Source: Pseudomonadota bacterium
GTDB taxonomy: Bacteria > Pseudomonadota > Alphaproteobacteria > Micropepsales > Micropepsaceae
Assembly: GCA_021804785.1 (NCBI GenBank)
Contig: JAJZGY010000001.1
Coordinates: 124,001-188,000 of the forward strand
DNA length: 64,000 nt
Direction of reading: 5' to 3'
Shown: positions 30,639 to 59,881 of the stretch, in pieces
How the letters are laid out: every line of letters starts with the position of its first letter
Numbering within the stretch: the stretch's first letter is position 1
The notes under the pieces: generated by a model
Database searches by the model: none
Told to the model about the DNA's origin: nothing
What the model saw: the letters and a program-made list of their open reading frames with translations, nothing else
Translations under genes and position numbers: made by a program

Positions 30639-32542
30639 CAGAAACCGAACATATGATCAAAGCCAAAGCTGCCATCGGGCGAAAATGCCCCCTGGTAGCC
30701 AAACAGCCGGCACGTTTCATCGCGAATGATCACATACGAATTAGCGCCCGCAGAGACCAAGTTCTCAGACGAAAACTGCTCTTCAACACTCCACCACAAT
30801 GAACCCGACGCCGGAATGGTAATTGTGGCACGGCCAACCTCCCGGCCGGCTCCACTCACCAATATAAGGTCAGTTGTGGACTTTTCCCGCCACTGCTTCG
30901 AAATCGGATAGATAAGATGGCACCAGGTTTTCAGCGGCGCAGGTGCTATACGAAGAAATAGCCTAGTACTAAGCCCAGGCGGTGGGCCAGAATAGGACTG
31001 TGGCTCCGATTTAAACGTCAATGCCGAATTGAAGATGTGAGCACCAAAGCTGGTCTCAGCAGCGTAACCGCTGCGCCTATTTCGATATCTAAAGAGCGCG
31101 TGTAGCCAACCATCAACTTCTCTGCCGACGCTAAAATCGTAGACCAATTCCACATGACCGGCGCTCTCGCCAAGATCCAAGGCAAGTTCGGACAAATCCA
31201 CAGCCACGGATTGCGACCGCCTCAAATTGCCGAAATTATGTCTCGCAACGAGACGCCCATCCGCCGCGAAAAGCAGCGCTTTAACAGGTAAATGTTTCTG
31301 ACTGGTGGCCATCGGTGTTGGCAAAGCCACGGAGGAATAATCTGCAACCGGAAGAATCGGCGCAGGCAAAAGAAAGCCTTTTCCAAAATTCTCGCCCAAT
31401 CGGCATATTTCTGGATCCGGCGCAAGATCACTGCGTTCAACGTTGGGATGAGAAATGCGCCAGTGACCGCTTGTCGAGAGAATTTCATACCGCGGACGTA
31501 CCAGATGCTTGCCCGCAAAAATCTCGATCTGTTGCGGCCAAACTGCTTCCGGCAGCAGTTTGGAAACGCTAAGTCGATAAGTTGCATATGGTGCTATGGC
31601 ATCCATAAGCGGAACCCTTTCCCCACCACCCATCAAGCCAATGGATATTTCACCTGGAGGAATTGGGATTGGATGACAATTCTGCACCCAAAATATCACA
31701 TCTTCATGGTCGTTGGGAGCTGGCAAGCCCGCATAGAAATCAGCTGGCCACGAATTTGCATCGTGAGTCTGAGAAACTAGAGCAAAGCCGTCAGTATAGG
31801 TGTCCAGGGCATATTTAACGACATCATGTCCTGCTGCACCAATAACATGAATGAACAACTGACCACAAAAATCGGACAAGCCAAATCGTGCACGTACCTC
31901 GGCACTATCTATAATCACTGCCCCCTCTGGCTCCGCGCAGGACATCATCCACGTCGCCAGAATTGAGCCGTCATCAGCGAAAAGCCGGCACCAAATGCTT
32001 ACATTTGATGCACCATAGCGTGTCCAGTAATTGGCTGTTACCAGTCGAGTATGATGACCGTCTTCATCACGGAAAAATACAAAATTGGTGGCAAAGTTGA
32101 GTGTCGTAAGATAGCGATTTCGGTCACTGAGAATTTCCTCTGGAAGACGCAACGCAGCAAAGCTGATTACCTGCATTCCATCTGGCATCAGATGAGCTAC
32201 CTGTCGCTTGGTTCGAAATTCATCGAAGCTCGCGATGAACAATGTCCGGGCATTTGTATCAGGCAGCTGAGTTACCGGCTGAGCTGACATGCCACCAAGG
32301 CTACCTGTCAAATGCTCGATATTCTGAACATAATAGCCCGAAACCTCGCATCCATTTAGCGGGTAGAATTCCGAGAAAGCGGAGGCAACTCCATCCGGAT
32401 CATAAATCGCCACGGGGCCGGCATGGGTTAGGTGATCTAAGAGCACTTTTGCTTTTTCGCCAGCGAGAGGATGACTTAGCGCCTTATATAGTGACGAGCC
32501 TCCTCTCCCATTCATGAATGTCTCTATTTGCAACGGCATCAC
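30638..32542 (-). CDS. Unrecognised 634-residue protein
   Basis: I do not recognise this family. The protein is soluble, with no signal peptide or membrane span. The N-terminal 180 residues look like a Rossmann-type unit: VAIYDPDGVASAF, then FIASFDEFRTKRQVAHLMPDG, suggesting a nucleotide or sugar-nucleotide binding fold. The rest, about 190-634, is mainly beta, with repeated Phe/Arg/Trp-rich strands, resembling tandem jelly-roll domains. It overlaps the upstream 2OG-Fe(II) oxygenase gene by four bases (ATGA) and shares one base with the downstream ELM1 gene. Tight coupling implies joint function. It may be a modification-scaffold or a carbohydrate-binding protein; this is only inference. Confidence 0.75.
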   Translation of the reverse strand: MMPLQIETFMNGRGGSSLYKALSHPLAGEKAKVLLDHLTHAGPVAIYDPDGVASAFSEFYPLNGCEVSGYYVQNIEHLTGSLGGMSAQPVTQLPDTNARTLFIASFDEFRTKRQVAHLMPDGMQVISFAALRLPEEILSDRNRYLTTLNFATNFVFFRDEDGHHTRLVTANYWTRYGASNVSIWCRLFADDGSILATWMMSCAEPEGAVIIDSAEVRARFGLSDFCGQLFIHVIGAAGHDVVKYALDTYTDGFALVSQTHDANSWPADFYAGLPAPNDHEDVIFWVQNCHPIPIPPGEISIGLMGGGERVPLMDAIAPYATYRLSVSKLLPEAVWPQQIEIFAGKHLVRPRYEILSTSGHWRISHPNVERSDLAPDPEICRLGENFGKGFLLPAPILPVADYSSVALPTPMATSQKHLPVKALLFAADGRLVARHNFGNLRRSQSVAVDLSELALDLGESAGHVELVYDFSVGREVDGWLHALFRYRNRRSGYAAETSFGAHIFNSALTFKSEPQSYSGPPPGLSTRLFLRIAPAPLKTWCHLIYPISKQWREKSTTDLILVSGAGREVGRATITIPASGSLWWSVEEQFSSENLVSAGANSYVIIRDETCRLFGYQGAFSPDGSFGFDHMFGF

Positions 32543-33183
32543 AGAGCCTCCGATGCAAAGAGGCGTTTCATAAATGCACTAAAGCGGTGGCGTGCGCGTT
32601 CGCGTCGAACCACAGCTTCGCTCCTCACCCAATTGACCTGAATGACGCGTCGTGGACCTTCAAATGGCTCGAACCCATGCCATGCCCTAGGCCCATTCTT
32701 GAATGCCAACAAGGTGCCGCGATCCGGCGGTACTTCGGATGCATAGTCGTCCAGGCTAGTAGGACTGCGTAGGAGCCGAAGACGCCCGTGACCGCTTTCC
32801 CAACTTTGGTTCATATAAAGCAGAAGCGTGACCAGCTTGAATTTGCTGTCAGTATGAATCTCGCCGTCCGCCGAACGGCTGACGCCACGGACGGTGACCG
32901 TGACTGGTCTATTCGTGAGATCAATATCCAACTTCTCGCAAACCAGACTCCGCATCTTGGAACCGGTCAAGGCGTCAATCAGCGCGGCAAAGCGTGGCCC
33001 GTACGACAGAGACGGCAATGGAAAACTTCCCGGATGTGAAATCCGTGGATAATCGGCCTCTATACCTTCCTGTGCGCCCTCGACTATGAAGCCTGGTACG
33101 ATCAGGTGACGAAATGGGGCGTCGCTTGGCACGGTACGTGCTAGCGCTACAAAATCAACGGGATCAAGGGTGGTGGGAACCAT
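32539..33183 (-). CDS. 2OG-Fe(II) oxygenase family protein
   Basis: A 214-residue protein with the double-stranded beta-helix pattern of 2-oxoglutarate/Fe(II) dioxygenases. The iron triad is H110-x-D112 (EIHTDSKFKLVTLLLYMN) and H169 (AWHGF), with an arginine for 2-oxoglutarate shortly after (GPRRVIQVNWV). It is a clear paralogue of the enzyme at 50390: both share SYG-type PNLNYGP-like, GRLR-LLRS and the tail RxRxRHxxSAF. The ATG at 33183 is chosen; a GTG at 33243 is in frame but has no ribosome site. The substrate may be a surface glycan, lipid or peptide of the neighbouring genes. Confidence 0.85.
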   Translation of the reverse strand: MVPTTLDPVDFVALARTVPSDAPFRHLIVPGFIVEGAQEGIEADYPRISHPGSFPLPSLSYGPRFAALIDALTGSKMRSLVCEKLDIDLTNRPVTVTVRGVSRSADGEIHTDSKFKLVTLLLYMNQSWESGHGRLRLLRSPTSLDDYASEVPPDRGTLLAFKNGPRAWHGFEPFEGPRRVIQVNWVRSEAVVRRERARHRFSAFMKRLFASEAL

Positions 33184-33338
33184 TGGACTCACTTGAATAT
33201 CATTATCTTTGGCACGGGCTGGCTGGGGCCGCGCTGGCTCCACAAACCCGCACCCCGGCTATATCCGCAGGCAGGCCTATCCGGCAACTGCGGCGGCTTT
33301 GGGGCCTTCGAGCCACCCCTTGACCAGGGGAGATACCG

Positions 33339-49124: not shown

Positions 49125-49138
49125 TTGATTTAGCTCAA
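49125..49138 (+). promoter_or_regulatory. FNR/FixK-type box upstream of the chorismatase-ubiTUV operon
   Basis: TTGAT-TTAG-CTCAA matches the FNR/FixK/Anr consensus TTGAT-N4-ATCAA in nine of ten defined positions. It is centred about 66 bases before the first start codon, in the place of a class II activator site if transcription begins roughly 40 bases downstream. These Crp-family regulators switch on genes at low oxygen, which fits the O2-independent ubiquinone genes in the operon. Confidence 0.6.
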
Positions 49139-49197
49139 CGACATACCGTCAAAAAAGAACTGGTTATGGCGCAAACGATGCCAAGGCCGGCAAAATT

Positions 49198-50376
49198 GTG
49201 ACACATAAACATAGCCCAAAAACTTCCCCCAACAGCACAGTTAAGAGCTTCTGGGGATCGCTCGGAGGTACCGAGCACTATATAACCCTAACGGCGAATG
49301 GAGAGCGCGATCTCGCGGGCCAGATCGCGGAAATCGAGCAACGATATTCCGCCACTCTCCGTGACCTTAATTTGTCTCCTGACACCGCTGTTTTCCGACG
49401 GATCTTCGTCAGCGACACCATGAATCAGGCCGCCTTGGTAGCCTCCAGTGAACTGGCCCAATCAAGGGCGGACAACCCAGTTGCTGTGTCGCTCATCCAG
49501 CAACCGCCCCTGCCTGGAGCTAAACTCGCGCTCCTTGCCTATCACATTTCCGGCGCCTCCAACGTCCGCAAGCAGGCGCTCTCAAACCATGATCTTTTAG
49601 TTGTCAAAAATGGACAGCGACATCTATGGACCACCGGCCTGTGCGCGGGACACACCTCATCAAACACCTCATCAGCCGCCCAGACCCGTCACGTTTTCAC
49701 GGATCTAATCACCAGCCTCAAAGCGCAGGACTGTTCGTTATCTGAGCACTGCGTACGCACCTGGTTTTATTTAAAGGATGTAGACGTATTTTATCAGGGA
49801 ATGGTCGACGCACGAGGAGAAGTCTTCGCCAAATACGGTCTGACTGCCGACACGCATTACATTGCTAGCACTGGAATCGAAGGGGCCTGCGCCCATCGCT
49901 ACGATGTGGTTGCCTTAGACGCGTATTCCAACCTGGATCTCATCCCCGAACAGGTATCCTTCCTCAATGATTTTTCTCGCCTCTGCGCAACAAAGGATTA
50001 CGATGTTCATTTTGAACGCGGTACGCGCATAGCATACGCCGATCGCGCCCATCACTTCATCTCCGGAACAGCAAGCATTGATACACTGGGTAAAGTTGTT
50101 CACGTTGGAGATGTAACACGTCAGGCCGAGTATGCCCTAGGACATGTCGAAGCGTTGTTGCACTCCGGTGGTGCTACGCTCCGGGATTTAGGGCACCTCA
50201 TCGTCTATCTTCGTGATCCCACAGATTACGCGTGCGTCCGGGATGTTTTACACAATGCATTACCAGAGGTACCGGCCGTACTGGTGCAAGGTGCGGTTTG
50301 CAGACCACAATGGCTGGTCGAATTGGAAGGCATTGCTATTGCATCTCATGAAGCGAAATCTCTGCCATCGTTTTAG
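49198..50376 (+). CDS. Chorismatase-like protein (FkbO/Hyg5/XanB2 family, RidA-type fold)
   Basis: A 392-residue protein with two RidA/YjgF-like halves, as in chorismatases. Seen are SLIQQPPLPG (98-107), RTWFYL (187-192), ASTGIEG (223-229), SGTASI (289-294), HVGDVTRQ (302-309) and CRPQWLVELEG (368-378) with the C-terminal glutamates near the active site. FkbO and Hyg5 hydrolyse chorismate to dihydroxy- or 3-hydroxybenzoate, and XanB2 makes 3- and 4-hydroxybenzoate, the latter for ubiquinone. Being first in an operon with ubiTUV, it probably supplies the quinone ring precursor (inference). The GTG start overlaps the stop of an 11-codon frame (49166-49201) that may couple translation. Confidence 0.8.
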   Translation: MTHKHSPKTSPNSTVKSFWGSLGGTEHYITLTANGERDLAGQIAEIEQRYSATLRDLNLSPDTAVFRRIFVSDTMNQAALVASSELAQSRADNPVAVSLIQQPPLPGAKLALLAYHISGASNVRKQALSNHDLLVVKNGQRHLWTTGLCAGHTSSNTSSAAQTRHVFTDLITSLKAQDCSLSEHCVRTWFYLKDVDVFYQGMVDARGEVFAKYGLTADTHYIASTGIEGACAHRYDVVALDAYSNLDLIPEQVSFLNDFSRLCATKDYDVHFERGTRIAYADRAHHFISGTASIDTLGKVVHVGDVTRQAEYALGHVEALLHSGGATLRDLGHLIVYLRDPTDYACVRDVLHNALPEVPAVLVQGAVCRPQWLVELEGIAIASHEAKSLPSF

Positions 50377-50389
50377 AAAGGAGTAGGAT

Positions 50390-51061
50390 ATGAATGCCGA
50401 AGAGCCGAACTTTGCCATGCTCAATGAAGAAGAGATTTCTATCTCCAAACTGCACACTGATCCCTATGAATATGCGTACGTCGAACAGGCCATCCGTCCG
50501 GAATATCGCACTGCAGTGTTAGCGGACTTACCAGTGATACCGGATCGAGGCAGCTATGGATTACCTAACTTAAATTACGGTCCAGCATTCGGTACGGTTA
50601 TCAAAGATCTCACAAGCCAGCGCTTCAAACGCCTTGTGGAACAGAAGTTCGACATGGATCTCAGCAAAAATCCCTCTGTTATACTGATGATGGGGAACAC
50701 AACTGGCCACTACAATGAAGGCTTCGCTCATCCAGACTCCAGGCACAAAATTGTAACTGTGATTGTAGGCTTTAGTCACGAATGGCCCTACGAAAAAGGG
50801 CGTTTGCGAGTTCTGAGAAGCTCTGACCGCAACGATTATGCATTCGAGTTTCCACCGGAATTTGGACACATGTTGATGTTCAAAGTGAGCGAAAAGTCAT
50901 GGCACGGCTTTTTACCCCAGAAAGGTCCTAGGATGAGTTTGCAACTCTGCTATGTCGACTCTGAGGCATACGTACGGAGTGAATATGCCCGCCATGGAGT
51001 CAGTGCTTTCGCCAAATCTGTCCCAATGCTCCGCAAAATCATTGAATGGGCACCACGCTGA
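50390..51061 (+). CDS. 2OG-Fe(II) oxygenase family protein, paralogue of the 32.5-kb gene
   Basis: A 223-residue cytosolic protein with the iron triad H114-x-D116 (FAHPDSRHKIVTVIVG) and H172 (SWHGF) and the 2-oxoglutarate arginine near R181. The YGLPNLNYGPAFG segment, GRLRVLRSSDRNDYAFEFPPE and the tail RSEYARHGVSAFAK are shared with the enzyme at 32539-33183, so they form one subfamily. The ribosome site AAAGGAG lies seven bases upstream of the ATG. It is the second gene of the operon, 13 bases after the chorismatase gene. The expected reaction is an O2-dependent hydroxylation, substrate unknown. Confidence 0.85.
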   Translation: MNAEEPNFAMLNEEEISISKLHTDPYEYAYVEQAIRPEYRTAVLADLPVIPDRGSYGLPNLNYGPAFGTVIKDLTSQRFKRLVEQKFDMDLSKNPSVILMMGNTTGHYNEGFAHPDSRHKIVTVIVGFSHEWPYEKGRLRVLRSSDRNDYAFEFPPEFGHMLMFKVSEKSWHGFLPQKGPRMSLQLCYVDSEAYVRSEYARHGVSAFAKSVPMLRKIIEWAPR

Positions 51062-51084
51062 CTCGTGGAAAAGAGGCTACGTTA

Positions 51085-51765
51085 ATGAGTTTTCCTCCTC
51101 TACCCAGAGTGACAGATTTGGCGCACCATTTCGAGCGGGCGCTGCGTGAGTCCAATATCTCCGAAGCGCCATATCGTCGATGGAATCTGACAAACGTCTT
51201 TCCTGAGAGCATGTGTGTAGGAATACTAACCCTACCGATTGCACCGCCACTTATTGGCGATTGCTACGGCGTACGTGATCGACATAACGAAAAGCGCACT
51301 TTCTTCACTCCGGAATTGCGGAAGGATTTTCCAACTTGTGCGGTGTTCGCAGAAGCGATGCAGCACCCAGGGGTCGCCCGTGCGTTTGGCGAAGTATGCA
51401 ACGTACCAGTCGAAGGTTCTTATCTGCGCATTGAATATATTCAGGATCTCGACGGTGCCTGGCTCGAACCTCATCGCGATATCAAGGAAAAATTATTTTC
51501 CATGGTTGTCTATTTATGCACCGGACCACACGCAAAGGAATGGGGAACAGATATTTATGACGAACACAAGAAGTGGATTGGCCGTTCCTCAGCGGAATTT
51601 AACTCTGCGGTGATCTTCATCGCTGGACCTAATACTTGGCACGGATTTGACAAGCGTCCAATTATCGGCGTGCGGCGCCTAATGGAAATCAATTACGTAC
51701 ACCCTAGCTGGCGTGACCGGGAACAACTCTCGTTTCCTGAACGGCCGATTACGGTCGCCTCGTGA
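51085..51765 (+). CDS. Second 2OG-Fe(II) oxygenase-like protein
   Basis: A 226-residue protein with the same fold but a different subfamily from its neighbour. H130-R-D132 (LEPHRDIKEKLFSMVVYLC) and H186 (NTWHGFD) form the iron triad, with an arginine pair RR about 11 residues on (GVRRLMEINYV). The DI.KLFSMVVYL pattern resembles prolyl-hydroxylase-type oxygenases. The start ATG is taken at 51085 as the reading frame to 51046 would overlap the upstream gene without its own ribosome site. Its stop TGA overlaps the GTG start of ubiT by four bases, so it is coupled to ubiquinone genes. Confidence 0.8.
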   Translation: MSFPPLPRVTDLAHHFERALRESNISEAPYRRWNLTNVFPESMCVGILTLPIAPPLIGDCYGVRDRHNEKRTFFTPELRKDFPTCAVFAEAMQHPGVARAFGEVCNVPVEGSYLRIEYIQDLDGAWLEPHRDIKEKLFSMVVYLCTGPHAKEWGTDIYDEHKKWIGRSSAEFNSAVIFIAGPNTWHGFDKRPIIGVRRLMEINYVHPSWRDREQLSFPERPITVAS

Positions 51766-52457
51766 GCTCTTCACATCACTCCCAGCCCTCAAATACGCCA
51801 ATATCAACGGTACTCTTCCTAGGTCTGATATTGGACAAACTCCCCGTACGTTTGGTGCAACCAGTATTAGACGGGCTTCTACGTATTGTGTTGAGTCGTC
51901 ACCCGGGTTGCCTGGACCGAATGGCGGACTGGAGCCGGGCACGGGTGCTCATTGACCCTGTAGATCTACCATTTGCGATCCTATTACGCCCTAACTCGGC
52001 TCACCCTAGTCTACAGGCCTATAACAAGGAGGAAGTAGTCGACGCCGATGCAATAATCCGAGGCCCCCTTGCTACCTTGATCGAGCTTGTCGAAGGTCGG
52101 GTCGATGGAGACACCCTGTTCTTTTCGCGTGAGTTGATTGTTCAAGGGGATACAGAAGTTGTTCTAGCGCTTCGAAATACCGTCGATGACGCCGGGATTA
52201 ATATATTGGAAGATATCGCCGTGGCGCTTGGTCCCCTGGGTCATCCATTCCGGGCCGCAGCCAGTGTCGGGAGCAAAATTGCCAGTCGGCTGCAACGCGA
52301 TCTAACAACACTTGGCGTCGCTGTAATCGCTCCTGCCGTCCGCCAAAGCGATGCACAAAGCATTCGAATTACACAACTGGAAGAAGAAATAAAAGTGTTG
52401 CGTCGACAGAGACCACGATCAGCCCGTCAGGTCGAGACATCAAATGAAACGCCCTGA
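51762..52457 (+). CDS. ubiT: UbiT-like SCP2 domain protein
   Basis: A 231-residue protein with an SCP2 lipid-binding domain (about 25-165). The segment LFFSRELIVQGDTEVVLALRNTVD is the typical UbiT stretch. The C-terminal 60 residues hold a short coiled coil (ITQLEEEIKVLRRQ) that is longer than in E. coli UbiT (174 residues). UbiT is an accessory lipid-carrying factor in O2-independent ubiquinone biosynthesis with UbiU and UbiV. The GTG start overlaps the previous stop (GTGA), and its end overlaps ubiU by 14 bases. Confidence 0.85.
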   Translation: MSSSHHSQPSNTPISTVLFLGLILDKLPVRLVQPVLDGLLRIVLSRHPGCLDRMADWSRARVLIDPVDLPFAILLRPNSAHPSLQAYNKEEVVDADAIIRGPLATLIELVEGRVDGDTLFFSRELIVQGDTEVVLALRNTVDDAGINILEDIAVALGPLGHPFRAAASVGSKIASRLQRDLTTLGVAVIAPAVRQSDAQSIRITQLEEEIKVLRRQRPRSARQVETSNETP

Positions 52458-53433
52458 ATTAATATGCCCGGCAGGTACTCCGGCGGCTCTTAGAAGTACC
52501 GTCGAGGCTGGAGCAGATGCGGTATATCTCGGCTTTCGCGATGAAACCAATGCTCGCAACTTTCCAGGACTAAATTTTAGCCGTAAGGAACTAGAACAGG
52601 GTATTGCATTTGCTCACGATAACGGAGCGAAGGTCCTCGTCGCTATAAACACTTTTCCAAGGTCCGGCTCACCCGGTATTTGGCATAACGCGGTAGACGA
52701 CGCAGCTCGACTAGGTGCGGACGCCGTAATTCTGGCTGACATAGGGCTTCTTGACTATGCACAACGGCGCCATCCAAATCTTCGTTTACACCTCTCAGTG
52801 CAGGCAGCTGCGTCCAATCCCATTGCTATCAGCTATTACGCCGAGCAATTTGGTATCAAGCGCGTCGTGCTACCACGGGTTCTTACCGTGCCTGAGATCG
52901 CGGAATTAAATTCCTCAATTTCCTCGGTGGAAACGGAGGTTTTTGTATTTGGTGGTCTCTGCGTCATGACCGAAGGGCGTTGCATGCTGTCATCTTACGT
53001 TACGGGCCGGTCTCCAAACATGAATGGCGTTTGTTCACCTGCATCTCACGTACGCTACGTCGAGACTGCACGCGGTGTGGCCAGTAACCTGGGCGAATAT
53101 ACAATTAACGAGTTCGGAAGAAATGAACCCGCTGGCTATCCTACGCTCTGCAAGGGTCGCTTTGTTACTCAGGGAAATGCCAGCTATCTTTTTGAGGAAC
53201 CCACCTCACTAAATACACTTTCCATTCTTCCTGATCTCATTAAAGCAGGCGTATCTGCGTTTAAAATTGAAGGCCGGCAGAGGGGGCGTGCATACGTTGC
53301 GGCTGTTGTGGATGCCTTTCGGCAAGGGATAGACGCCGTCATGGCGGGAAAGCCTGTGCCAGACATCAACTTAGTTCACATCACCGAGGGCGGCCGCCAA
53401 ACAACAGGCGCCTATGAGAAAAAATGGCGATAA
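52444..53433 (+). CDS. ubiU: UbiU, U32 peptidase-family hydroxylation protein for O2-independent ubiquinone synthesis
   Basis: A 329-residue U32-family protein. The four cluster cysteines are C173, C180, C197 and C236, with spacings of 7, 17 and 39 residues. These are the same as in the four [4Fe-4S] ligands described for E. coli UbiU. The neighbour UbiV forms the heterodimer. UbiU and UbiV hydroxylate the ubiquinone ring without oxygen; prephenate has been reported as the oxygen donor. It begins with ATG 52444 inside the end of ubiT and overlaps ubiV by 10 bases, so the three are translated together. Confidence 0.93.
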   Translation: MKRPELICPAGTPAALRSTVEAGADAVYLGFRDETNARNFPGLNFSRKELEQGIAFAHDNGAKVLVAINTFPRSGSPGIWHNAVDDAARLGADAVILADIGLLDYAQRRHPNLRLHLSVQAAASNPIAISYYAEQFGIKRVVLPRVLTVPEIAELNSSISSVETEVFVFGGLCVMTEGRCMLSSYVTGRSPNMNGVCSPASHVRYVETARGVASNLGEYTINEFGRNEPAGYPTLCKGRFVTQGNASYLFEEPTSLNTLSILPDLIKAGVSAFKIEGRQRGRAYVAAVVDAFRQGIDAVMAGKPVPDINLVHITEGGRQTTGAYEKKWR

Positions 53434-54335
53434 ACGTAACATCATCAAAGCTCACTCTGGGGCCGATTCTCTTTCATTGGCACCCTAACGCATGGCGTGA
53501 CTTCTATTTTCGCATTGCCGACGAATCTGACATAGATACTGTTCATGTTGGAGAAGTAGTGTGCTCAAAGCGTACTCCATTTTACGACAAGCTGATTCCA
53601 GATGTGATAGATCGTCTTGCGGCTTCTGGAAAGGAAGTAGTTTTATCATCACAGGCACTTATTATGAGTGCGAGCGAACAGAAAGTAGCCCGTGATCTAA
53701 CGACAATGGAACAGTTCTTTGTCGAAGCCAATGACATGACATTGTTTCCCCTGCTTGCCGGAAGACAGTTTGCCGTTGGCCCTTTCGTAAATGTATATAA
53801 TGAGGGTACATTGGCTGTTCTGGAGAGCATGGGAGCTGTGCGCATATGTCTGCCAGCCGAATTGCCGAAGGAGCGTCTCTGCGAACTTGCATCCCGGGCG
53901 AAGGCAGATCTGGAAGTGCAGGTATTTGGTCGTCTGCCGTTGGCTATCTCAGCGAGATGCTACGCAGCCAGAGCGCATAATCTTTCTAAAGATGGGTGTC
54001 TGTACGTTTGTGGTCGAAACTCCGACGGATTGGTAGTCCGCACGTTAAATGAAAAGTCTCTTCTCGCCGTTAATGGTACACAGACGCTGTCCTATCGTAT
54101 GGTCAATCTTTTGGCGGAGTTACCGTATCTGCAGAAAATAGGCATCAAACGCTTTCGCATCTCGCCACATACGGTTGACATGGTTTCCGTGGCGCAAGTT
54201 TTTCGCGAAGCCATGTCAGGAGCTATAGCCCCCGACACAGCGAATGCCAGGCTCCAGGCAATTTGCCCAGACACGGACTTTTCCAATGGTTACTTTCATG
54301 GAGAGCCAGGTTACGCCTTTGTCGAAGCCGATTGA
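53424..54335 (+). CDS. ubiV: UbiV, U32 peptidase-family partner of UbiU
   Basis: A 303-residue U32-family protein and partner of UbiU. The cluster ligands are C47, C179, C192 and C196. The 13- and 4-residue spacings of the last three match those of E. coli UbiV (C180, C193, C197); the first ligand is shifted by a longer lead. It ends with the FRISPHTVDM region of the family. It is the last gene of the operon; a gene-poor interval follows. O2-independent ubiquinone formation implies that the organism respires anaerobically or at very low oxygen. Confidence 0.93.
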   Translation: MAINVTSSKLTLGPILFHWHPNAWRDFYFRIADESDIDTVHVGEVVCSKRTPFYDKLIPDVIDRLAASGKEVVLSSQALIMSASEQKVARDLTTMEQFFVEANDMTLFPLLAGRQFAVGPFVNVYNEGTLAVLESMGAVRICLPAELPKERLCELASRAKADLEVQVFGRLPLAISARCYAARAHNLSKDGCLYVCGRNSDGLVVRTLNEKSLLAVNGTQTLSYRMVNLLAELPYLQKIGIKRFRISPHTVDMVSVAQVFREAMSGAIAPDTANARLQAICPDTDFSNGYFHGEPGYAFVEAD

Positions 54336-58928: not shown

Positions 58929-59881
58929 ATGAGAAAGGATGATGCCCGCAAACTGGATCATGCCACGCTGGAAGCGATGCGCATCCGAGCCGTGCGCAGC
59001 GTGCAGACTGGGGGGAATCCTGATGTTGTGGCGCGATCTTTGCGGATCAACCGGCGCACGATGTACGGATGGCTGGCGCAGTATCGGCAAGACGGATGGG
59101 GAGCGTTGAGGGCGAAGCCACTTTTTGGCAGGACGCGCAAACTGGATGGGCGCGCGAGATGGTGGCGAAGCTGATCGCAGACAAGTTCGGCGTCATGTTG
59201 AGTGCCAATTCAGTTGGCCGGCTGCTGGCGCAACTCAGCATCACCTGCGAGAAGCCTTTGCACCGTGCACAGGAGCGAGACGCGGCTCTGGTCGAGCAAT
59301 GGCTCAAGAAGGAGCATCCAAAGATCAAAGCCCTGGCGCAGGTTGAAAAGGCTGAGATTTTCTTCGGCGACGCCGCCCATATGCGTTCCCACCATCACGC
59401 AGGGCGTACTTGGGGCAAGAAGGGGGAAACGCCCGCCGTCGAAACCACGGGTGCACGCCATTCCCTGAGCCTGATCTCGGCAATCAGCGCGCGCGGCCAG
59501 ATGCGGTTCATGATCATGCAAGCAGGCGGGGTCATTGCTGCGGTCTTCAGCGAATTTCTGAAGCGCCCGCTCATCGGCGCCAAACGGGCTATTTTCTTGG
59601 TCATCGATCGCGGACCTACCCACATTGCCAGGAAGACCAGAGCTTTTGTCGACAGCCTGAACGGCAGACTGCGGCTGTTTTATCTTCCGCCCTATTCGCC
59701 CGACCGCAATCCTGATGAACTGGTCTTGAAGCACCTCAAAGCCGACACTGTCGGCCGCATGGCGACCACCAGCAAAGCTGATTTCAACGCCAAGGTCCGC
59801 GCCTCAACGCGCCAGTTGCAGAATGATCCAGATAAAATCCGCTCCTTCTACCCAAAGCCATCCCTCAGATATGCCGCGTGA
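58929..59881 (+). pseudogene. IS630 transposase, broken by deletion and frameshift
   Basis: The N-terminal HTH part (58929 to about 59145: NPDVVARSLRINRRTMYGWL, ending GRTRKLDG) and the catalytic part (about 59145-59881) are in different frames. After KLDG, relatives have about 25-30 residues before the (R)EMVAKLIADKFG segment; these are missing and the frame changes at this point. The catalytic part keeps the DDE residues in FFGDAAH, FLVIDRGPTH and the NPDELV segment. An internal deletion is inferred. The product should be inactive unless frameshifted. Confidence 0.85.

Follow-up and report, generated by a model that had tools for sequence, protein, structure and literature searches.

A chorismatase-like gene and two predicted Fe(II)/2-oxoglutarate dioxygenase genes ahead of ubiTUV: a tentative low-oxygen extension of the oxygen-independent ubiquinone locus

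Why should genes for oxygen-requiring enzymes stand in an operon that is apparently switched on by oxygen lack? The question is raised by positions 49125 to 54335 of the window, by which we mean the whole stretch of 64,000 nucleotides analyzed here (contig JAJZGY010000001.1, positions 124,001 to 188,000) from a member of the Micropepsaceae with a genome of 3.29 Mb in 171 contigs. Six plus-strand genes there join a chorismatase-like gene (chor) and two genes for predicted Fe(II)/2-oxoglutarate (2OG) dioxygenases (oxA and oxB) to ubiT, ubiU, and ubiV of oxygen-independent ubiquinone synthesis. The set is puzzling because oxygen-needing enzymes are not expected where genes are switched on as oxygen runs out; the original prediction, made from the sequence of the window, had remarked that the oxygenases are ill suited to an anaerobic scheme, and we agree. 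The link with ubiTUV is real and unusual: two oxygenases belong to a set that shows signs of regulation by oxygen lack and occurs together with oxygen-independent enzymes. We are confident that chor-oxA-oxB is a low-oxygen module tied to oxygen-independent biosynthesis. Tentatively, we read the operon as a whole as ubiTUV, the locus for ubiquinone synthesis without oxygen, lengthened by this three-gene module, which is plasmid borne elsewhere, and we favor with some reserve the possibility that the product of the module feeds ubiquinone in particular.

The operon opens with the box TTGATTTAGCTCAA (49125 to 49138, plus strand), an FNR-type site that starts 73 bases 5' of the GTG start codon of chor and has one mismatch to TTGAT-N4-ATCAA. 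Its score was matched by 2% of 200 shuffled upstream regions (shuffle P 0.02), and the box is unchanged in two loci of the same genus (L031 and L032; here and below, L denotes a locus and G a genome), though chor there is just 73 to 75% identical. The first gene, chor (49198 to 50376), encodes a chorismatase-like protein of 392 amino acids that forms its own subfamily and has a RidA-like C-terminal domain. It is followed by oxA (50390 to 51061; 223 amino acids; H114-D116-H172-R181) and oxB (51085 to 51765; 226 amino acids; H130-D132-H186-R197), for the latter of which we took the ATG at 51085 as the start, as in its relatives (the open reading frame list opens the frame at 51046). Then come ubiT (51762 to 52457), encoding the SCP2-domain accessory factor of oxygen-independent ubiquinone synthesis, ubiU (52444 to 53433), encoding a component of the U32-family oxygen-independent hydroxylase, and ubiV (53424 to 54335), encoding the partner of UbiU. 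The intergenic spacing is, in order, +13, +23, -4, -14, and -10 bases. All three Ubi proteins exceed the cut-offs of their NCBIfam equivalog models (UbiT, NF047962, 72.5 bits against 46.9; UbiU, NF047963, 513.6 bits against 440; UbiV, NF047965, 360.7 bits against 275), which bears out the identities originally given to them, and the predicted row of six plus-strand genes behind a near-consensus FNR-type box is indeed present at these positions.

In the scores of UbiT, UbiU, and UbiV, the contiguity of their genes, and the presence of an FNR-type box, the window agrees with the ubiTUV pathway of PMC6747719 and PMC11707229; the available part of the latter predicts such a box for 1362 of 1566 ubiTUV triplets. 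It differs in that chor-oxA-oxB precede the set, so that the FNR site of the contiguous ubiTUV row stands at the head of the operon, 5' of chor, and a term search of the main texts of both papers found no mention of such genes. No description of the combined chor-oxA-oxB and ubiTUV set was found in the open-licence literature, preprints and most subscription journals aside, or in the available parts of these two papers and of PMC12423496, PMC7677001, PMC8790237, and PMC9997740. Literature searches on chorismatases with 2OG enzymes and on PasI and PolD led nowhere.

The original prediction was to count as refuted if the oxygenases lay by ubiTUV in this genome only. This was not the case: an oxB profile gave 27 further loci in GTDB genomes, which together with the window and a genome reached through oxA (G051) make 29 module genomes. 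Among these, chor is present in 28 (L057 has none, and the copies of L049 and L052 are incomplete), oxA in 25, and oxB in 28, and all three genes occur in 24. Of the loci, 12 read chor-oxA-oxB and another 12 oxA-oxB-chor; 3 have oxB-chor, 1 pairs chor with oxA, and 1 has a lone oxB. Chor-oxA-oxB is a conserved module, its three genes staying together in most genomes with any of them. Hosts named below class level belong to the Caulobacteraceae, Acetobacteraceae, Rhodospirillales, and Hyphomicrobiales, and L031 (G029), of the same genus as the window, is recorded as an alphaproteobacterium. Between the window and L031 or L032, the nonsynonymous divergence (dN) is 0.05 to 0.06 for oxA, 0.08 to 0.10 for oxB, 0.16 to 0.20 for chor, and 0.24 to 0.30 for ubiT; synonymous sites were saturated or not computable, and hence no dN/dS is given. 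In a sample of 398 genomes of the phylum, the chor profile scored above 600 bits in two (G000 and G129), each of which has true oxB, and the next score was 134.8.

The oxB family as such was also considered as tied to ubiquinone. Profile matches occur in 41 genomes of the class, with true oxB just in G000 (520 bits) and G129 (339 bits) and the next score at 239; of 20 stretches fetched around such matches, the 18 compared (the true locus L090 and the short L109 being left out) contain no chor. Three further comparison stretches came from module genomes (L150 to L152; 21 in all). An ELM1-like neighbor was seen in 6 of the 21, and L095, L105, and L107 contain a gene resembling oxA. Among the distant oxB-type stretches, L093 (6471 to 10835) has an oxB-like gene directly 5' of ubiTUV, with a PhyH-type dioxygenase gene adjoining and without chor; L150 (1066 to 2967), from the module genome G105, has an oxB-like gene (39%) that adjoins a flavin Ubi hydroxylase gene; and L105 (8719 to 12117) has oxA-like and oxB-like genes directly before hemN, for an oxygen-independent coproporphyrinogen oxidase that scored over its cut-off, and a CRP-type regulator gene. 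The window itself contains a second 2OG dioxygenase gene (32539 to 33243, minus strand) whose product is 41% identical to OxA over the aligned part. It has relatives in most members of the genus, adjoins an ELM1-like gene and a gene for a 634-amino-acid protein without a Pfam match, and has a gene context unlike that of the module.

The proposed link of chor and both oxygenases with ubiTUV likewise holds past this genome. UbiU was found in 27 of the 29 module genomes (25 over the cut-off; missed in G115 and G118) and in 42 of a class-wide sample of 385 genomes (39 over the cut-off), or 40 of the 383 without true oxB. For 27/29 against 40/383, the Fisher test gave 9e-22, uncorrected for kinship and with 29 genomes that need not all be of one class. 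Within the genus of the window, UbiU occurs in all 4 genomes with the module's oxA and in 18 of the 56 others (P 0.015). In 12 of the 29 module genomes, ubiTUV is no more than about 10 kb away from the module (the window, L031, L032, L033, L034, L038, L039, L040, L045, L051, L052, and G051), against about 0.25 expected within 15 kb. Since the two stand variously in one operon, divergently, convergently, or on the same strand with genes between, the association has probably been retained or has arisen on more than one occasion.

An FNR-like box 5' of the first module gene was found at P < 0.05 in 11 of the 29 loci, where 1 to 2 would be expected. Perfect TTGATN4ATCAA sites occur in L035, L036, L041, and L050, with UbiU on other contigs, and the variant GTGATCCAGATCAC lies at 92 to 107 bases in L045, L053, and L056, which are among the loci below the threshold. 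The neighbors of the module include nrdD, for anaerobic ribonucleotide reductase (L034, L037, L038, L040, and L051), and pdxS together with a radical-SAM gene (TIGR01212; L037, L038, L040, and L051). A lipoate-ligase-like gene, whose product in L040 scored 111.5 bits against TIGR00545 (cut-off, 280), is found near the module or ubiUV in 7 loci (L034, L038, L040, L043, L044, L046, and L051), all of the UbiC-bearing group, and genes for FnrL-like regulators are found near the module in L049, L053, L056, and G051, of which those scored (L049 and G051) fell under the FnrL cut-off. The clustering of neighboring open reading frames also caught antisense frames, which were ignored. In the Hyphomicrobiales, ketoacyl-ACP synthase genes were seen left of chor (PRK06519 in L045 and PRK06501 in L056), of a type that we take to be the one known from very-long-chain lipid A synthesis.

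Among 72,556 plasmid records, oxB was found in 3, which are close kin and all carry ubiTUV, and UbiU was found on 171. Plasmid pACRY03 of Acidiphilium cryptum JF-5, typed as conjugative, has the row ubiT-ubiU-ubiV-chor-pdxS-pdxT-nrdD-nrdG with oxA-oxB elsewhere, and pACMV3 of A. multivorum has ubiT-ubiU-ubiV-chor-pdxS-pdxT plus oxA-oxB; on each of them a perfect FNR box precedes both operons. A second chor stands directly before oxA-oxB on three plasmid records (L145, 1674 to 2733; L146, 15157 to 16166; L160, 5119 to 6181), and since this copy is frame-broken, the intact chor of the Acidiphilium plasmid lineage is the one that sits with ubiTUV. L160 (CP084173.1), recorded as Acidithiobacillus ferrooxidans, shares 16 kb of identical sequence with pACRY03, through either recent transfer or a mixed culture. 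The Acidiphilium plasmids apparently carry a kit of oxygen-independent replacements. Their pdxST genes are described as a likely recent acquisition in PMC9997740, the available part of which deals with the same plasmids and does not mention the neighboring ubiTUV, nrdDG, chor, and oxA-oxB. According to the available part of PMC8790237, strain JF-5 reduces Fe(III) even anaerobically and growth of Acidiphilium needs small amounts of oxygen, which would fit enzymes working at trace oxygen. In the window, a DDE_3/HTH_33 transposase-type gene (59069 to 59881, plus strand), about 5 kb past the operon and beyond a large Sortilin-Vps10 protein gene, is a possible trace of mobility.

In Fe(II)/2OG dioxygenases, an HxD...H triad holds the metal and an arginine binds 2OG, and these residues are invariant in 24/24 aligned OxA and 27/27 aligned OxB sequences (the incomplete Chor of L049 and L052, the OxB of L057, and G051 were left out of the conservation counts). 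OxA exceeds the Pfam PF13640 gathering score (32.7 against 27 bits), and OxB falls under it (18.9 against 27 bits). Their predicted models (predicted local distance difference test scores of 79.3 for OxA, with a low-confidence stretch at 105 to 113 beside H114, and 89.7 for OxB) have a 2OG dioxygenase fold like that of solved members. The best fold matches of both are PasI (OxB, Z 19.0, root mean square deviation [RMSD] 2.6, 190 aligned; OxA, Z 15.9, RMSD 4.4, 184 aligned) and PolD (OxB, Z 18.9, RMSD 2.5, 192 aligned; OxA, Z 16.6, RMSD 3.0, 183 aligned), followed by Tpa1 and OGFOD1 and then by P4H and PHD2. PasI and PolD, also the best sequence-profile matches of OxA, are small-molecule enzymes, the former solved with octosyl-acid phosphate, a small phosphorylated acid (9ei7). 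Identity to them is 12 to 20%, the substrate is probably different, and a shared fold by itself shows no function. An OxB profile from a three-row alignment, run against PDB, led nowhere.

Chor is, by inference at most, a chorismatase, and it fits no typed class in the tests made. Like FkbO, Hyg5, and XanB2, it has a RidA-like C-terminal domain and the Hyg5-type catalytic Glu, Gly, and Cys: aligned to PDB 5ag3 and 4bps (FkbO), Glu375 corresponds to catalytic Glu334, Cys368 to Cys327, and Gly290 to Gly240. We take chain 5ag3, whose entry title is putative pteridine-dependent dioxygenase, to be Hyg5. Unlike these chorismatases, Chor matches the FkbO/Hyg5 model TIGR04444 weakly (49.5 bits against a cut-off of 325), its TGI(E)GA motif is one residue longer, and no pigment or polyketide genes were recognized nearby. 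The available part of PMC7170507 gives the catalytic role of Hyg5 Glu334 and the residues typical of type-II (3-hydroxybenzoate) chorismatases, Gly164, Gly231, and Cys318 of Nat-hyg5. In a register inferred from the offset of the Glu and the alignment to FkbO, Chor has two of these three (Gly290 and Cys368), with Ile222 at the third position. Its product may thus be something other than 4-hydroxybenzoate, the formation of which is not assured. Among 25 Chor members, Glu375, Cys368, and Gly290 are invariant and Ile222 is nearly so. Full-length homologues, 35 to 41% identical, were seen on a Parabacteroides plasmid (L147, 6950 to 8104), where genes for imelysin, a di-heme oxidoreductase, and hemerythrin stand in the same row, and on a plasmid of a deltaproteobacterium (L149, 6959 to 8074); the Chor motifs are kept in the Parabacteroides and Smac51 homologues. 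A plasmid of B. xylanisolvens that was looked at has few annotated genes and was uninformative.

How, then, does the module fit the ubiquinone pathway? The original prediction pictured a self-contained unit that makes its own ring precursor and hydroxylates it at low oxygen. The link between chor, the oxygenases, and ubiTUV stands, as does the FNR-type box; the self-contained supply of a precursor is not supported in the form proposed, given the UbiC of some hosts, the usual occurrence of ubiTUV without the module, and a Chor product that is perhaps not 4-hydroxybenzoate. A PF04345 search found no UbiC in the window's own genome, where chor could therefore supply 4-hydroxybenzoate. UbiC is scarce in the class at large (4 of 385 sampled genomes; among the 42 bearing UbiU, G249 alone), so its lack is normal and is not made good by chor generally. 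Chor as a plain substitute for UbiC is thus weakened, since 8 of the 29 hosts have UbiC and most UbiU-bearing alphaproteobacteria are without both. In the available part of PMC12423496, the 4-hydroxybenzoate source of Hyphomicrobium denitrificans is called unexplained. OxA and OxB as stand-ins for missing ring hydroxylases in general were rejected, because aerobic enzymes are present in most hosts. The window's genome has one flavin Ubi hydroxylase and one COQ7; among the module genomes, the former had no match in G124 and none over the cut-off in G106, G112, and G121, and COQ7 is missing in 8.

Several observations weigh against a dedicated role of the module in ubiquinone synthesis. UbiC is present in 8 of the 29 hosts, all of them with the oxA-oxB-chor order. 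With flavin Ubi hydroxylases (TIGR01988) over the cut-off in 25 of the 29 hosts and COQ7 in 21, OxA and OxB fill no evident gap and would add to a complete-looking aerobic route. True oxB is lacking in 40 of the 42 UbiU-bearing genomes of the class (the two with it are G000 and G129), and hence ubiTUV is usually found without the module. UbiTUV was not seen near the module in 17 of the 29 genomes, many of whose contigs are short, and the box threshold was missed in 18 of the 29 loci. Five genomes lack at least one of the oxygenases: whole-genome searches found no close oxA in G105, G117, G121, and G126 (L036, L048, L052, and L057) and no close oxB in G051, so one oxygenase can be absent, unless the assemblies lack it. 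In the window's own genus, the module's oxA (at least 64% identity) is rare (4 of 60 genomes). Because nrdD and pdxS also adjoin the module, the tie may be to low-oxygen life generally. Finally, Chor homologues occur on plasmids of Bacteroidota and one deltaproteobacterium, and to our knowledge neither Bacteroidota nor that deltaproteobacterium's group makes ubiquinone.

The most likely reading is that, at trace oxygen, OxA and OxB oxidize a small molecule derived from chorismate and probably related to ubiquinone. As oxygen falls, FNR would switch the set on, and Chor would split chorismate, without oxygen, to give pyruvate together with either a hydroxybenzoate or a dihydroxy-cyclohexadiene acid. 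OxA and OxB, in sequence or paired, might then, at trace oxygen, oxidize either the acid itself or a ring intermediate formed later, and the product might join the ubiquinone ring pathway through the remaining Ubi enzymes of the host; these last two are the weak steps. Labor would be divided, with UbiUV acting without oxygen and OxA/OxB at oxygen traces.

The strongest alternative, which we regard as a serious though somewhat less probable one, is that the module makes a separate chorismate-derived molecule for low-oxygen life, such as an iron ligand, redox mediator, or signal, and shares regulation and neighborhood with ubiTUV merely as part of the same anaerobiosis gene set. The nrdD, pdxS, TIGR01212, lipoate-ligase-like, and FnrL-like neighbors would suit it, as would UbiC in part of the hosts and aerobic hydroxylases in most, the two 3-hydroxybenzoate-type residues of Chor, and the homologues on Bacteroidota plasmids, one of them beside genes for imelysin, a di-heme oxidoreductase, and hemerythrin. 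Each of the three plasmid records, however, has its intact chor in the ubiTUV operon and a broken copy on the oxA-oxB side, and no recurring transporter or CoA-ligase gene was recognized beside the module, although some recurring neighbors, e.g., one five-locus cluster, are unannotated. We rank the ubiquinone-feeding role slightly above a separate metabolite.

A bolder form of the ubiquinone-feeding role, which we consider unlikely, is that chor-OxA-OxB constitutes an unrecognized, horizontally moving quinone branch for the trace-oxygen zone, in which Fe(II)/2OG enzymes of unusually high O2 affinity oxidize a chorismate-derived ring. Quinone would then be made between the full-oxygen flavin-hydroxylase and the no-oxygen UbiUV routes, and a ring-modified quinone would be possible.

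It is less probable still that OxA and OxB serve as oxygen sensors, hydroxylating a protein in the manner of PHD2 and Pseudomonas P4H and so tuning the anaerobic pathway, with Chor making their ligand or inhibitor. The fold matches do include PHD2 and P4H, and distant oxA/oxB relatives lie by FnrL-like genes (L049, L053, and L056) or by hemN and a CRP-type gene (L105); however, PasI and PolD outrank PHD2 and P4H (OxB, Z 19.0 and 18.9 against 13 to 14; OxA, 15.9 and 16.6 against about 11), and the usual partner is a metabolic enzyme. That Chor is an ordinary RidA-type imine deaminase unrelated to chorismate is the least probable reading: PF01042 is its sole Pfam match, its best PDB profile match is the RidA-type chain 2dyy, the chorismatase cut-off was unreached, and the Acidiphilium plasmid label is Rid family hydrolase, but full-length members have 380 to 401 amino acids, the FkbO alignment covers 194 profile positions with the RTW and TGI motifs, the Hyg5 alignment takes in the catalytic Glu, and Glu375, Cys368, and Gly290 do not vary among 25 members.

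The source of 4-hydroxybenzoate is an open question in alphaproteobacteria without UbiC, and we know of no explanation so far of how quinone synthesis runs at trace oxygen. To both, the module offers three genes and a host that is in culture, reduces Fe(III), and has a complete plasmid. The Acidiphilium plasmids suggest, moreover, that oxygen-independent replacements for oxygen-dependent biosyntheses can be borne by plasmids as a set.

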